From Thiomicrorhabdus sp. (lineage in GTDB: Bacteria > Pseudomonadota > Gammaproteobacteria > Thiomicrospirales > Thiomicrospiraceae), in NCBI GenBank assembly GCA_015487495.1, contig WFPP01000025.1, positions 1 to 64,000 on the forward strand: a stretch of DNA of 64,000 nucleotides, written 5' to 3'. This document shows positions 12,855 through 60,661 of this stretch, piece after piece. Under the pieces are notes generated by a model. That model did no database searches and was not told the DNA's origin. It saw only the letters and a list, made by a program, of their open reading frames with translations. Both the position numbers and the translations under genes were made by a program. Position 1 is the stretch's first letter; every line of letters starts with the position of its first letter.

Positions 12855-12926
12855 TGCTCGGCACTTTTAGTGTTTTCTTTTCTTGTAAATGGCGGTTGCT
12901 TTCTTTTATTTAATCAGTGCTTTCCT

Positions 12927-13021
12927 AGGAGTCTTCCGGACTTAGGTAATCGTTACGAGAGAAAGCCATTTTAAGGCTCTGTTTTCGCAGTAGATTTACC
13001 CTAAATCCGACAGGCTTCTAG
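12927..13021. repeat. Family B MITE-like element, 95 bp, overlapping the mrp stop codon
   Basis: It begins CTAGGAGTCTTCCGGACTTA and ends AAATCCGACAGGCTTCTAG, an imperfect inverted repeat (17 of 22 positions by my count). The terminal CTAG (13018-13021) contains the TAG stop of mrp on the minus strand. Interior words such as GAGAAAGCCATTTT also occur in the 166-bp copy at 22882. Confidence 0.8.
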
Positions 13022-14286
13022 GTGTTTAAGATTTCAATTTTAGGGAAGGCATTGGCGTAACTTTGTTTTTGTGTGCTTACTTTGAAGGCAACTTTGTGTG
13101 CAATGCTTCGATAGTGTTGTGACAGGATGCTGTTGGGTTCGGCAATGACCGTTGGTTTTCCGTTGTCTGTATCTTCCCGAATGTGTTTATCCAGAGGCAG
13201 ACTTTCAAGGAGTTCAACCGCATATTGTTTGGCCATCTCTTCACCACCGTGTTCTCCAAAAATGGCTTCTTCATGTTGGCATTGGCTACAAATGTGGGTA
13301 GCCATATTTTCAATAATCCCTAAAACAGGAATATTGACTTTTTCAAACATTTTTAAGCCTTTTTTGGCATCAATTAATGCAATTTGTTGTGGCGTGGTGA
13401 CAATTACGGCGCCTGTTACAGGAATTTGTTGTGACAGGGTGAGTTGTACATCGCCTGTTCCGGGAGGCAGGTCAATAATAAGGTAGTCTAAATCTTGCCA
13501 ACTGGTTTCTTTAAGCAGTTGAGTGAGGGTTTGAGTCACAATTGGGCCTCGCCAGATCATGGGAGAATCTTCATCAATGAGTGCCCCAATGGACATGACT
13601 TGCAGACCATAGGCGGACAGGGGTTGCATGCTTTTGCCATCTTTAGAATTGGGTTTGTCATGGATATTAAGCATGGTCGGGATGCTTGGGCCATAGATAT
13701 CGGCATCTAAAATACCCACTTGTGCCCCTTCTTGTTGTAATGCGAGTGCAAGGTTAACGCTGGTGGTTGATTTTCCTACTCCTCCTTTTCCTGAGGCAAC
13801 AGCAATTATATTTTTAATGCCTGGTAGAGGGGCAATGTTTTGTTGGGCTTCGTGTGCCACGACGTGAGTTGTAAACTGAATGGTGACTTTTTTAACCTCA
13901 TCTAGCTGTGTAAGATTGTGTGTTAAAGCCAGTTCAATACTTGGCCATAGGCTTTTGCAGGGGTAAGGCAGGGCGAGGCTAAAGCTGAGGTGCCCCTTTT
14001 TAAGAGTCATGTTGCTAAGGGCTTTAGGGGTTAAAAATGTGTGTTGTTTGTTTTTAAAGGTGGTCTGTTCGGTAGGTGGGGGGCTTTCTTTTGTTTTTGC
14101 TGGTTCAGCCGTATCGTTTTTGGTATTGGTTTCAAGGGGGGCTGTTTCAGTGTTGTCGGTAATAATTGGGTGTGGTTCGTTTAACACTGATTGCATTGGG
14201 TTTGGATGGGCTAAAATAATGCGTTCAATTTTATGCTGTCGTTCTTTGGTCAGTTCTTTGCCAAAAAGCCTTTGAAAAAATCCCAT
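13018..14286 (-). CDS. mrp: Iron-sulfur cluster carrier protein Mrp/ApbC
   Basis: P-loop ATPase of the Mrp/NBP35 family that binds and transfers 4Fe-4S clusters to apoproteins. The deviant Walker A IAVASGKGGVGKST lies near residues 161-174, followed by GILDADIYGPSIPTML and the bridging CxxC in HICSQCQHEEAIFGEHGG. The 422-residue length includes an N-terminal MIP18-like remnant separated from the ATPase by a low-complexity, Pro/Thr/Glu-rich linker (about residues 40-85), longer than usual. The TAG stop is formed by the end of a family B repeat, so the last few residues may differ from the ancestral C-terminus. Confidence 0.94.
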   Translation of the reverse strand: MGFFQRLFGKELTKERQHKIERIILAHPNPMQSVLNEPHPIITDNTETAPLETNTKNDTAEPAKTKESPPPTEQTTFKNKQHTFLTPKALSNMTLKKGHLSFSLALPYPCKSLWPSIELALTHNLTQLDEVKKVTIQFTTHVVAHEAQQNIAPLPGIKNIIAVASGKGGVGKSTTSVNLALALQQEGAQVGILDADIYGPSIPTMLNIHDKPNSKDGKSMQPLSAYGLQVMSIGALIDEDSPMIWRGPIVTQTLTQLLKETSWQDLDYLIIDLPPGTGDVQLTLSQQIPVTGAVIVTTPQQIALIDAKKGLKMFEKVNIPVLGIIENMATHICSQCQHEEAIFGEHGGEEMAKQYAVELLESLPLDKHIREDTDNGKPTVIAEPNSILSQHYRSIAHKVAFKVSTQKQSYANAFPKIEILNT

Positions 14287-21709: not shown

Positions 21710-22885
21710 ATGCAACAATCAACTTGGTTTACGCCTGAAGGGTTAGAAGACCTTTTACCCCCTCAAGCTCAAAAATTAGAATACTATCGTCGTCAATTAA
21801 TGGATGGATTTAACCTGTCGGGTTACGATTTGGTTTTACCCCCTCTTGCCGAGTTTACCGATTCATTGCTAACGGGAACAGCACGCCATCTGGCTGTAGA
21901 TACCTGTCGTTTTACCGATCAGGAGAGTGGCAAAATGATGGGTGTTCGAGCGGATATGACACCACAAGTTGCTCGTATTGTGAGCAATCGTTTAAAAGCA
22001 TCCGATACCATTTCTCGCTTGTGTTATGCGGGAGAGGTTTTGAAAACGCGTAATAATAAAGCTAAGGGGTCGCGTAGCCCAATTCAAGTGGGTGCTGAAA
22101 TATTTGGTCATGCTGGTGTGGAAAGTGATATTGAAATCATTGAACTCATGCTGGAAGCAATGCAAACATTGAATTTGAAATCGGTTAAATTGAGTTTGGG
22201 GCATGTGGGTATTGTGGATGAATTGTTGTCACTGGCCCAACTGAATGAGGCTCAAACTGCACAGTTACTGGCTATTTTTGAGCGTAAAGCCATTCCAGAG
22301 TATGATGCGTTTTTGGCTGACAATACCCTTCCAGAAAGCGTTTCAAATGCCTTTTCAAAATTGCTGGGCTTTTGTGGGGAGGCGACACAGGTATTGCAGC
22401 AAGCCAAAGAATATTTATCGCCTTTGTCTCCTGTTTTAAAAGAAGCCATTGCACATCTGGATACGGTTATCTCTTATTTAAAGAGTATGCACAGTAATGC
22501 CATTCATTTAGATTTAGCAGATATTCGTGGTTATCAGTATCACACTGGTATTATTTTTGCCTGTTACTCTGCAGATGGTTTTTTATTGCCTATTTGCAAA
22601 GGTGGGCGATACGATGATATTGGATCGGATTTTGGGTTGGCACAACCTGCTACGGGGTTCAGTTTGGATTTACGTTTGGCGTTGGATTTACTGGATTCTG
22701 TACCTGACTCAGAGACAGGAATTGTGTATGCACCACCAGAAGCGGATAAAGCACTTCAGGCTAAAATAGCAACGCTAAAGGCATCGGGTATTAAAGTGAT
22801 TAAAACCTATGATACAGGGGCTTTGGTGAAAGGTGACCAATACCTTTCTAATAACGGTACTCAATGGCTGGTAGTAAATGTCTAG
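21710..22885 (+). CDS. hisZ: ATP phosphoribosyltransferase regulatory subunit HisZ
   Basis: HisRS-like protein without tRNA charging activity that pairs with the short form of HisG to catalyse and feedback-regulate the first step of histidine biosynthesis. It shows the class II synthetase-like core (VRADMTPQVARIVSNR, GEVLKTRNNKAKGSRSPIQVGAEIFGH, ARK-like GGRYDDIGSDFG). The 391-residue length is normal. The TAG stop (22883-22885) is part of the CTAG that opens a family B repeat, so that element defines the end of the protein. A short-form HisG is expected elsewhere in the genome. Confidence 0.94.
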   Translation: MQQSTWFTPEGLEDLLPPQAQKLEYYRRQLMDGFNLSGYDLVLPPLAEFTDSLLTGTARHLAVDTCRFTDQESGKMMGVRADMTPQVARIVSNRLKASDTISRLCYAGEVLKTRNNKAKGSRSPIQVGAEIFGHAGVESDIEIIELMLEAMQTLNLKSVKLSLGHVGIVDELLSLAQLNEAQTAQLLAIFERKAIPEYDAFLADNTLPESVSNAFSKLLGFCGEATQVLQQAKEYLSPLSPVLKEAIAHLDTVISYLKSMHSNAIHLDLADIRGYQYHTGIIFACYSADGFLLPICKGGRYDDIGSDFGLAQPATGFSLDLRLALDLLDSVPDSETGIVYAPPEADKALQAKIATLKASGIKVIKTYDTGALVKGDQYLSNNGTQWLVVNV

Positions 22886-23047
22886 GAGTCTGTCGGATTT
22901 AGAATGAATCTACTGCGAAAAAGCCATTTCGGCCCATTTTTCTGATCAATTTCGTTAAATATACTCATATTCGCCTCGAATGATCGAAAAAATGGCCTCA
23001 AAATGGCTTTCTCTCGTGACGATCACCTAAGTCCGATAGACTCCTAG
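22882..23047. repeat. Family B MITE-like element, 166 bp, overlapping the hisZ stop codon
   Basis: It begins CTAGGAGTCTGTCGGATTTA and ends AAGTCCGATAGACTCCTAG; the 21-bp ends match at 19 positions as inverted repeats. The interior holds AAAAATGGCCTCAAAATGGC and GAGAAAGC-type words shared with the copies at 12927 and 31386. No ORF is present, so any transposase would have to act in trans. Confidence 0.88.
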
Positions 23048-23141
23048 AGAAGTGCGGAGTTATTTATTGATACCCTTGCATGAAAGAGGGAAAACCGAAA
23101 TAGAAAAATAGGCAATCTGTTTTCTTTTTTTATTTGTGTAT

Positions 23142-23156
23142 TCTTTTGTGTAAAGG
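23142..23156. repeat. Recurrent 15-bp palindrome, copy 2
   Basis: TCTTTTGTGTAAAGG lies 44 nt upstream of the purA start and shares the flanking TTTTTATTTGTGTA with the copy at 42816. It could be an operator or promoter-proximal element of purA. Confidence 0.55.
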
Positions 23157-23185
23157 TTTCTCATTCAATCTAATTATAAAAGTGA

Positions 23186-24520
<1,335 letters not shown>

Positions 24521-28232: not shown

Positions 28233-28340
28233 ACAGAAATGACAGGGAGTAGCAAGCAATAAGGTGAGTTGAGATTCTTTAATAAAGATCAGGCTTATTT
28301 TTGCTTTTTTTTATAGGTGGATTTTTTCGTGTAATGGTTT

Positions 28341-29124
28341 CTATAAATCTTGTTTATAAAACAGTGCCAGCTGTTGGTATACGAGAGGATAGTGTTTGTG
28401 AAGTTCTTTTGGGGCTTCGAAAAAGTATTCGGTGGTGACGGCAAAAAACTCGGCTGGATTGGTAGCGGCATAGGGGTTTATGCTGGGTTTTTGGTTGTGT
28501 TGCAGTTGGTGGTTTAACTGGTTAAAGGCATCAGAAAAGGCATCGAACCAAGCTTGATTATTCATATTACGATGGAGGGGAGGATGGCCGTTGGTTGCGC
28601 CATTGAGCATATCGAGCTTGTGTGCCATTTCGTGCATGAGCACTTGATTGGCGTGTTTGTGTAATGGGTGGGGTTGATTATCCTGCCAGCTAATGATGAT
28701 GCCCCCCTGATATTGCGTTTCGCCCGATTCAATGCCTGCCCAGTCTTCCATAATACCATCTTGGTTAAAGTGGGGGGGGGCGCCCATTGTGAAAGGCATT
28801 GGGGTAGACAATAATTTCTTTCCAGTTGCGTATCCAGTCGAGTGGATTGCCTTCTTCTGGATTTTCAAGCCCAAAAATTACGATGGCGGCTTGGGTAGCG
28901 ATGGTGGTACGCATAAGGTCTGAGAGAAAAAAACCGTGTACAGCAGTGAGGGTTTTATGAGTTAAAATCTGGCTGGCAAGCAGGCGTAATTGCATTTTTT
29001 CATGGCGTGAATAGCGTTGTATGATTGGCATAGTTGCAATGGTCTTATGCCACAGTTTAAGTGGTATTTTGCTTTTTTTAAGTGCACGTTGTAATAAAAA
29101 CCGTTTGATTCGAGTTGTAAACAT
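28341..29124 (-). pseudogene. mtfA: MtfA-like zinc peptidase (M90 family), split by a +1 frameshift in a C9 tract
   Basis: Two overlapping minus-strand ORFs (28765-29124 and 28341-28874) are the two halves of one MtfA-family protein of about 260 residues. The first half carries LTAVHGFFLSDLMRTTIATQAAIVIFGL and the second carries the zinc-ligand motif VLMHEMAHKLDMLNG (HExxH) and the family C-terminus PAEFFAVTTEYFFEAPKEL. The frame changes at a run of nine G on the plus strand (28772-28780). Removing one G would give NGRPPHFNQDG and a continuous protein. It may be a real pseudogene, a phase-variable contingency locus or a sequencing error. MtfA in enterobacteria modulates Mlc and glucose uptake; that role is not assumed here. 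Confidence 0.85.
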
Positions 29125-30048: not shown

Positions 30049-31366
30049 CCGCTATAAACTTAAGAACATTGCCATTGATGCAATAACGTTTAAAGGTGGG
30101 GGGTGGGCCATCATTGAAGACATGGCCCAAGTGAATGCCTGAACTGGCGCTGCGTACTTCGGTTCGAGTCATACCTAGAGTATTGTCTTTATGCAGTGTG
30201 ATGGCACCTTCAACAGGATTAAAAAAGCTGGGCCAACCAGTTCCACTTTTAAATTTGGTGTCGCTACGAAACAATTTGGCACCGGTTATGGGATCAACAA
30301 AGTAGCCTGGGCGTGTTTCGTCCAGATGAGAGCCTGTAAAGGGTTGCTCAGTGCCCTCTTCAAAGGCAATCTTTCGTTGTTCAGGAGTAAGCAATCGTAG
30401 CCCAAGCCATTTCCAAAAACGGGTTTTATCACCGTTATACCCTGTATAGCGGGAGACCTCATTACCATGTTCAAACAGGACAGTTGTCGGTGTTGCGAAC
30501 AGGGGGGCATCAAGTGTCCAGTTTTTGGGTGGTTTAGGGCTTAGTGTGGTGACAATTGCAACTTCGGATTGCCAGTGTTCGAGAATTTCTTGTTTAAATT
30601 TTTTGCAAAATTCACAGTCTTCTGCTTCAAATACAATGAGTTGTCTCTTAAAGTTTAAGTTATTTTCTGTTGGTTTGGTCTTGTTTTTAGTGCTGGAATC
30701 AGGGTAGGCAACTCCTGTTCCTCCTAAGCCACAATAACCATCAGGATTTTTTTTAAGGTAGTCTTGATGATAGGTTTCGGCGGTAACGTAAAGGGTTAGC
30801 GGTTCTATTTCGGTGGTGATGCTGGAAAAACCTGCCTGAGTTAATGACGTTTGATACTCTGATTTGGTTTGTTCAGCAATGTGTTTTTCAGCCTCGGTTT
30901 GATAGTAAATAGCGCTACGGTAGTTGCTGCCAATATCATTCCCTTGGCGATTGCCTTGCGTTGGATTGTGGTTTTCCCAAAATGCAATAAGGATTTCTTT
31001 TAAAGAAATGGTGTCTGGTTGATAGGTGACCTTAATGACTTCGGCATGGTTACGTTCTTGTGATTGCCCTGTTCGAAGGCGTTTTTCCAGATTAAGTATG
31101 TCTTGGTAGGTTGCATTGGGCTGACTTCCATTGGCATAGCCATTTTCCACATCAACCACTCCCTTAAGTTGCGAAAGGCGTTTTTCTGCCCCCCAGAAAC
31201 ACCCCATTCCTAATACAATTGTTTGAGTAGAAGAGGGGGGGGGCAGTACTTTCATGCCGGTTTCCTTTGCGTGAGAGGTCGAGTTCAAAATGGTCATGCA
31301 CAATAACAAAAAAAATCCCATTTTAGAAGGAGAGGAGGGCAATTTTAGAGGGGGGGAAAATAGCAT
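30029..31366 (-). CDS. msrAB: Exported methionine sulfoxide reductase fusion MsrA-thioredoxin-like-MsrB
   Basis: A 445-residue protein with an N-terminal signal sequence (MGFFLLLCMTILNSTSHA after a lysine-containing leader), so it acts outside the cytoplasm. The MsrA domain (about 47-220) has the catalytic GMGCFWGAEK (Cys56). A middle domain of about 100 residues has thioredoxin-like features with AEDCEFCKKF (CxxC, 251-254). The MsrB domain (about 325-445) has SGTGWPSF, HLGHVFNDG and the catalytic RYCING (Cys429), and lacks the zinc-binding CxxC pairs. The middle module may supply reducing equivalents. A C/G9 tract (31235-31243) in the leader is in frame. Start 31366 or 31321 cannot be decided, as neither has a clear ribosome binding site. 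Confidence 0.9.
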   Translation of the reverse strand: MLFSPPLKLPSSPSKMGFFLLLCMTILNSTSHAKETGMKVLPPPSSTQTIVLGMGCFWGAEKRLSQLKGVVDVENGYANGSQPNATYQDILNLEKRLRTGQSQERNHAEVIKVTYQPDTISLKEILIAFWENHNPTQGNRQGNDIGSNYRSAIYYQTEAEKHIAEQTKSEYQTSLTQAGFSSITTEIEPLTLYVTAETYHQDYLKKNPDGYCGLGGTGVAYPDSSTKNKTKPTENNLNFKRQLIVFEAEDCEFCKKFKQEILEHWQSEVAIVTTLSPKPPKNWTLDAPLFATPTTVLFEHGNEVSRYTGYNGDKTRFWKWLGLRLLTPEQRKIAFEEGTEQPFTGSHLDETRPGYFVDPITGAKLFRSDTKFKSGTGWPSFFNPVEGAITLHKDNTLGMTRTEVRSASSGIHLGHVFNDGPPPTFKRYCINGNVLKFIADENIEP

Positions 31367-31837
31367 AAACTGGTCTACTGTTATTAACGTTAAATAGAGT
31401 CATATTCGCCTCAACTGATTGAAAAAATGGCCTCAAAATGCCTTTCTTAGAGGTTTCTTAAGTCCGACAGATTCCTAGGCAAGTTCAATTTTCAGAATCC
31501 AGACCTTTTTTCGCAAGCGCAGGTCGATACGACAAGAAAAGATAACGCAGAACTTCAAGCGAACTTTCTTACGCGTTATTTTAACTTAAATTTTTGACTC
31601 TTGTGGTCACGACTTAAATAACTTTAAGAAAGGCACGCTTTGGTGTTACAAAGGGAGGGTAATAATGAATGGGTAAGGGGGGATGGGTAAGAAATGGGTA
31701 AGGGGGGGGAATTTTTTAAAATTGGCGTGTTGCTTGCTCTACCCTCTCATATTAGGTGTTTATAACAGTGGGTTTTAATAGGTATGTTATTAATGTTGTT
31801 TACTGAATATGCTTGTAAGAGATTGAATAGTACTGGA
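31367..31837. other. Intergenic region between divergent msrAB and the NlpC/P60 gene
   Basis: It contains a truncated family B repeat (31386-31478) and a G-rich stretch at about 31666-31713 with three imperfect ATGGGTAAGGGGG-like direct repeats. No ORF has coding features. Promoters for both flanking genes should lie here. Confidence 0.55.
31386..31478. repeat. Family B MITE-like element, left-truncated copy
   Basis: It aligns with the right two thirds of the 166-bp copy: GTTAAATA..TCATATTCGCCTC, then AAAAAATGGCCTCAAAATG, ending AAGTCCGACAGATTCCTAG. The left inverted end is not found. Confidence 0.75.
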
Positions 31838-34834: not shown

Positions 34835-35290
34835 GTGCGTTTAGAAGAGAAGCTAGAGAAATTATTAAAGCCTACCATTGAATCAATGGGGTTTGAATTG
34901 TGGGGGTTTGAATATCTGCCCGCAGGGCGTCATACGGTTTTAAGGGTATTCGTTGATAAAGAAGAGACGGGGGTTACGGTTGATGACTGTGCTACGATAA
35001 GCCGCCAGATCAGTGCCATTATGGATGTAGAGGATCCCATTAGCAGTGCGTATATGCTGGAAATTTCTTCTCCAGGAATGGATCGTTTGCTTTTAAAACC
35101 AAGTCAATTTGAGCGTTACAAAGGTAAAACGGTTCAAGTGAGAACAGCGGTAGGCGTTTTGGGGCGTAGAAAGTTTAAGGGCCCAATGCGACAAGTGGGT
35201 GATACGATGATTGTTATAGAGGTAGACGGTGAACTATATGAAGTTGCTTATGACATCATCGAAAAAGCAAACTTGGTCGCTGAGTTTTAA
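34835..35290 (+). CDS. rimP: Ribosome maturation factor RimP
   Basis: It is needed for 30S subunit assembly. From GTG 34835 (MRLEEKLEKLLKPTIESMGFELWGFEY) it has 151 residues; GGAAGAG lies 8 nt upstream, whereas the ORF-track TTG at 34829 would be too close. The N-terminal alpha/beta domain ends near SPGMDRLL, and the C-terminal SH3-like domain carries VRTAVGVLGRRKFKGPM. It is first in rimP-nusA-infB-rbfA-truB. No tRNA-Met gene precedes it, unlike in E. coli. A solo family A repeat end directly follows the stop. Confidence 0.95.
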   Translation: MRLEEKLEKLLKPTIESMGFELWGFEYLPAGRHTVLRVFVDKEETGVTVDDCATISRQISAIMDVEDPISSAYMLEISSPGMDRLLLKPSQFERYKGKTVQVRTAVGVLGRRKFKGPMRQVGDTMIVIEVDGELYEVAYDIIEKANLVAEF

Positions 35291-42755: not shown

Positions 42756-42815
42756 TTTATGAAGCTTTTGCACACGATACTGTTGAGAAAATATTAACTA
42801 TTTTTATTTGTGTAC

Positions 42816-42830
42816 TCTTTCGTGCAAAGG
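42816..42830. repeat. Recurrent 15-bp palindrome, copy 3
   Basis: TCTTTCGTGCAAAGG, preceded by TTTTTATTTGTGTAC, which is almost the same flank as in the purA leader copy. It lies in the rpsO-pnp gap, about 65 nt before a family A element. Confidence 0.55.
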
Positions 42831-42896
42831 TCTCTTATAAATTATTCGCCAAAGAGAAAATAAAGAGTAGAATAGTCCCGTTCAGGGTTTTCTTAA

Positions 42897-60269: not shown

Positions 60270-60661
60270 TTTTGAGTATTCTTTATGGTGATTTAGGTGA
60301 TGCTTATAAGTATTCATGTTTAAATATTGAATAAGAGACTTTTGAGCGAAAGTGTGTACAAATAAAAAAAGGTTAAAATATAATCGATTTTCTCTCTTTT
60401 TTTACCATGCCTCTCTCGAGCAAAAGCTCAATTAAGAAAGTTCTGAATGATTTGACCTGCCTCTGAGAGACACATCAATCATATTATAAAGTAAGAAATT
60501 CAGAGCTTTTTTAATTTAAGCGTAAAAATTTATGGAACTCATTTTACGCTTGTTTAATTTAAAAAGACAGTCGCGATCAGCATCGGTTTTTGATTCATCT
60601 AATGAACGGTGTGTTTGAGAAGTGCTGACTACGTTGAGTTGTTTGTTACGATAATTAAATA
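60270..60661. other. 392-bp divergent region between fumC and the histidine kinase
   Basis: It contains a degenerate pair of family A-like ends (AGAAAGTTCTGAATGATTT near 60435 and AAATTCAGAGCTTTTTT near 60497) and an AT-rich 10-bp hairpin AAGCGTAAAA/TTTTACGCTT (about 60518-60552). No ORF is credible. Promoters for both flanking genes should lie here. Confidence 0.5.

Follow-up and report, generated by a model that had tools for sequence, protein, structure and literature searches.

A putative MITE-like hairpin element overlaps the hisZ stop codon of Thiomicrorhabdus sp., probably as a passive effect of its CTAG target

Small mobile elements and dispersed palindromes that resemble the repeat analysed here have been described in several prokaryotes. 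MITEPsy1 of Pseudomonas syringae is a small non-autonomous element that inserts at and duplicates CTAG (or YTAA) and has been seen moving (PMC3189936). In Methanosarcina acetivorans, MITEs related to ISMac2, 160 and 169 bp long, were assigned to IS1182, and for one of them the repeat column gives 4 (PMC3852290); ISPse1, a member of IS1182, makes a 4-bp duplication (PMC3281130). IS1272, also of the IS1182 family, is reported to take the place of stem-loops at its target without duplicating sequence (PMC5678879). REP palindromes of the GTAG/CGTC families are 20–40 bp long, carry a tag at one end and are linked to RAYT tyrosine transposases (PMC3733652).

The hairpin element at the end of hisZ in Thiomicrorhabdus sp. 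is like MITEPsy1 in being small, apparently non-autonomous and CTAG-duplicating. MITEPsy1, however, is 100 bp long, has other ends, is tied to ISPsy2 rather than IS1182 and has no family of full-length palindromes across phyla. The ISMac2-related MITEs are alike in length and in IS1182 affiliation, the ends of the hairpin being common to IS1182 elements. They are archaeal, whereas the hairpin family spans many proteobacterial classes, has a conserved interior and occurs in a host in which the transposase was undetected. IS1272 has an IS1182-family transposase and is palindrome-related like the hairpin but, unlike it, the hairpin appears to duplicate its CTAG. REP palindromes are likewise dispersed, extragenic and marked by a conserved terminal tetranucleotide; an identity with REP/RAYT was rejected on the length of the hairpin (about 168 bp) and its symmetric CTAG ends. 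We did not find the hairpin family in the open-access papers searched or in Rfam.

The window, by which we mean the whole stretch of 64,000 nucleotides analysed (contig WFPP01000025.1), contains a full-length hisZ on the plus strand (21710..22885) encoding the 391-aa regulatory subunit of ATP phosphoribosyltransferase, followed by purA (23201..24520, plus strand), named from its conserved protein start. Between them lies one complete copy of the hairpin element, 166 bp long (22882..23047), recognized from its sequence, its other copies, its fold and the family alignment. It is assigned to the minus strand, where the canonical orientation of the family places ATCGTNRCGAG close to the 5′ end. 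The element starts with CTAGGAGTCTGTCGGATTTA and ends with TAAGTCCGATAGACTCCTAG, and with its near-perfect inverted ends it is a near-palindrome, predicted to fold into a single long hairpin of −76.9 kcal/mol (z = −9.65). CTAG stands at its left (22882..22885) and right (23044..23047) ends. The hisZ reading frame ends in AAT GTC TAG, and its stop codon (22883-22885) lies inside the first of these CTAGs; sequence and ORF coordinates thus confirm the earlier note, which had described a 166-bp repeat opening with a CTAG that contains the hisZ TAG.

That the stop lies physically inside the boundary of the repeat might suggest that a longer HisZ was cut by the element, whose CTAG would then be a new, premature stop. 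HisZ, however, matches its family model over its full length, with residues 3–389 of 391 corresponding to positions 4–387 of the 389-position curated model. Aligned at their C-termini, no fewer than eight relatives of the same genus, none with the element at this site, had an identical stop column (fourteen relatives were compared in full and the rest partly). In the element-bearing genome and the relatives alike the stop comes five residues past a conserved (Q/K)W: the protein ends QWLVVNV here and QWCVVSA, QWVVEQV, QWVIETV, QWTVERV, KWTVERV, QWMVETV, QWSIQTV or QWTVQTL in the relatives. Truncation is rejected on model coverage and on the element-free relatives; it would survive only if the host lineage had a private C-terminal extension, and we regard it as extremely improbable. 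Judged from these comparisons, the element did not truncate HisZ and the protein is unchanged, contrary to a suggestion in the earlier note. Nor is it supported that the repeat supplied a stop that was missing: the stop position is conserved and the TAG itself was most likely there already. The earlier note took a stop position and flanking sequence shared by descent with element-free relatives as the sign of a passive target-site effect; the position of the stop is indeed shared, while the sequence directly around the site has diverged too far for comparison. The stop codons of the relatives are TGA, TAA or TAG, the nearest relative (protein 82% identical) ending in GCA TGA, and the hisZ–purA gap is 315 bp with the element versus 29–205 bp in the relatives. 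No element-free hisZ site with CTAG was found among the same-genus relatives compared, which include no empty site from the same species.

The origin of the two CTAGs was examined by an empty-site search with the joined flanks of 20 copies, 12 from Halomonas-type genomes (G078-G080) and 8 from Sedimenticola (G081/G082). A filled site of Sedimenticola (L291) reads ...GACAGACGC-CTAG(element)CTAG-CGCACACCC, and its empty orthologue ...CAAGCCGC-CTAG-CGCACACCC, so that one CTAG is present when the site is empty and two when it is filled. This pair supports the earlier proposal that the element inserted at a CTAG target which coincided with the end of the gene, and the single CTAG of an orthologous empty site also counts against a truncated HisZ. 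Two further empty sites carry one C-AG and one TCAG, each in single copy; the exact CTAG was seen in the L291 orthologue only. One Halomonas-type empty site has no CTAG, and the Halomonas-type empty sites are mostly too diverged to read. By these comparisons the target appears to be CTAG-like, present once and doubled upon insertion. Since a CTAG that is single when empty and double when filled is a duplicated target, the hisZ TAG was most likely an in-frame stop before the element arrived. For hisZ itself this is inferred from sites elsewhere, and it would hold under a 4-bp duplication of CTAG as under a 2-bp duplication of the TA inside it, which leave the identical, indistinguishable string.

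CTAG could instead belong to the element, in which case the target would need no CTAG and the overlap with the stop would be an accident of landing. The near-invariance of CTAG at both ends would fit this, as would the Halomonas-type empty site without CTAG and one further copy of the host (L003, C122:46862-47023), which is 96% identical and has TTTG/CTTG in place of CTAG. That copy is probably young and may point to a duplication of 2 bp or to a target that is relaxed. An element-borne CTAG nevertheless seems very unlikely to us, given the one CTAG in the empty site exactly where the filled site has two, the single near-CTAG word at the two other empty sites and the over-representation of stop codons among insertions.

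The overlap at hisZ is not isolated. Within the 2.04-Mb host assembly, 37 stretches match the element, about ten of them near full length, and the complete copies mostly have CTAG at both ends. The window has five occurrences of a 16-bp element end, where shuffles predict 0.14, and two of the three window copies sit on a stop codon. The second of these, shortened to 97 bp by an internal deletion (12925..13021), holds in its right CTAG the TAG stop of apbC (13018..14286, minus strand), which encodes a 422-aa Mrp-type iron–sulfur carrier matched as far as 357 of 369 in its model; the third (31388..31478, plus strand) is a partial copy with a single end. Beyond the window, element CTAGs form the stops of trpD, dnaA, thrC, a dctM gene, leuC and gatB. 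The model matches of all six proteins reach within a few positions of the model end, ThrC at the element-bearing locus continuing for ~50 residues beyond it. At one locus (L181:4886-5054) a single element gives TAG to the convergent ORFs on either side of it, which a palindromic CTAG permits. Copies also occur in two same-genus genomes (G001, G012) and in another genus of the same family (G045). Overlap with stops is recurrent and ordinary for the hairpin family.

We compared element ends with other CTAGs drawn from the same loci, with genes called simply (naively) from ORFs. Of the 60 element ends in the genus set, 8 were outward stops and 1 lay inside a gene, versus 7 and 134 of 190 other CTAGs. 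At 120 loci of other genomes, 28 of the 179 ends were stops and 18 lay within genes, the figures for the 407 control CTAGs being 25 and 233. Insertions clearly avoid genes (p < 1e-22). Stops accounted for 27% (genus set) and 35% (other genomes) of extragenic insertions, compared with 12% and 14% of extragenic control CTAGs; the excess gave Fisher p values of 0.09 and 0.0002, respectively. This further excess may come from selection against insertions that hit promoters, or from genuine targeting.

The 20-bp end, CTAGGAGYCTGTCGGAYTTA, was found in at least 120 stretches when 84,980 species genomes were scanned, where we estimate that chance would give about two. The matches listed come from Gamma-, Beta-, Zeta- and Deltaproteobacteria, with a small number of other phyla also represented. 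Lengths cluster at 166–169 bp, around 168 bp, and the symmetric 20-bp ends are common to all. A Pseudomonas copy matches two Pseudomonas plasmids and four viral contigs bear the 20-bp end; searches of the window copy against plasmids and of a Halomonas copy against phages gave no match. A sister hairpin subfamily (L074:1122-1288 on host contig C82, and in G001, G012 and G023) has the ends CTAGGAGCCTGTCCGAGAACTAG and a similar centre, GGCGAATAGCACGGCTATTTAACGA.

In several genomes the 20-bp ends adjoin IS1182 transposase genes (L163, L159, L165, L144 and same-genus G002 contig ends). The L163 transposase matches NF033551 with E = 2.4e-105 and that of L159 with E = 2.8e-70; L159 has ends on both sides (1503 bp), as does L165 of Endozoicomonas (1558 bp, partly masked). 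By eye, the sequence adjoining the ends in G002, L144 and L163 does not look like the interior of the hairpin. Many contigs of G002 (L085-L094) break at the 20-bp ends, some entering the start of an IS1182 transposase, the breaks marking an IS of many copies that the assembly has lost. With 166–169 bp the element is too small for a transposase gene; it has tens of copies, terminal inverted repeats common to autonomous IS1182 loci and a short target-site duplication, CTAG being single in the empty and double in the filled site. On these sequence features the best reading is that of a MITE which uses IS1182-type ends. The transposase expected in the same genome of an IS1182 derivative was not detected in the host with NF033551 or tblastn, a weak negative in a draft that is 94% complete and of a kind from which repeats are often lost; nor was it found in G045, which is nearly complete, G078 or G082.

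An alignment of 33 sequences across phyla showed that the stems covary: both sides had changed in 43 of 61 pairs, and 93% of cells were paired, against no more than 47.5% after sliding. The interior also has asymmetric loops, GTAGCGAG/CGCAGTAGAT and GAGGCGAATAG..CTATTTAACGA, that are conserved across phyla. The covariation, the very stable predicted fold and the excess on stop codons would suit a hairpin kept at gene ends for an RNA role, for example transcription termination or protection of the 3′ end of the upstream mRNA. Against this, the element has no U-run terminator and no promoter-like site, its orientation relative to the gene at stops is even (10 versus 9, no bias), hisZ in relatives lacks it, and hairpin-templated repair of a palindrome can also yield covariation. 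We consider such a role distinctly unlikely. A function as terminator or promoter of purA was rejected for want of a consensus site, and a known structured RNA family because no Rfam covariance model matched: the window gave no gathering match and six further element loci had no hit at E ≤ 1, the only hits below threshold being plant miRNAs. Although the covariation could stem from hairpin-templated repair, that process should erase the asymmetric loops that persist. An interior conserved across phyla is also unusual for a simple IS deletion derivative and counts against a plain MITE. The 168-bp hairpin might instead form a class of mobile hairpin of its own, spread horizontally, with loops read by a protein, perhaps as folded ssDNA or RNA; it could then persist without IS1182 in the genome and would truly prefer stop codons. 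We hold this to be rather unlikely.

The reading that we favour, at a probability of roughly 85%, is a passive target-site effect of a MITE-like element at the hisZ stop. Ancestral hisZ would have read GTC TAG, and a non-autonomous hairpin transposon with IS1182-type ends would have inserted into the CTAG already holding the stop, moved in trans by an IS1182-type transposase undetected in the draft host genome. Insertion would have duplicated CTAG on the far side of the element and left the stop and the HisZ protein unchanged. As insertion occurs at CTAG with its copying, elements would often land on TAG stops without harm to the gene; selection against in-gene insertion, together with TAG stops that form CTAG when preceded by C, may explain why many survivors lie on stops. 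Against the favoured reading stand the lack of an empty hisZ CTAG site, the TGA of the nearest relative, the exact CTAG at one empty site only and the undetected host IS1182. The overlap would then be a predictable outcome of CTAG targeting, and a warning to annotators that repeats ending in CTAG often seem to supply stop codons. The family behind it is more interesting than the local case of hisZ: a widespread hairpin family is described, with conserved internal loops that call for a protein to read them and with landing sites that make a simple system in which safe insertion at the ends of genes can be studied.

Other repeats were seen in the window. A dispersed repeat, CTTTTTTTATTTGTGTATTCTTTTGTGTAAAGGTTTCTCAT, occurs between hisZ and purA (23124-23164) and at 28305-28345, 42798-42838 and 60326-60371, and another, built on TTCAGAGSTTCCTTAA, in both orientations at 35283, 42257, 43292, 55262, 12182 and 57375. 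Tandem repeats of 15 bp, CCTGTGGTTGCCCAT, occupy 1429-1533. Runs of at least seven G lie beside intergenic repeats (31233-31245, 31349-31357 and the flanks of many element copies) and are possibly a habit of the lineage.
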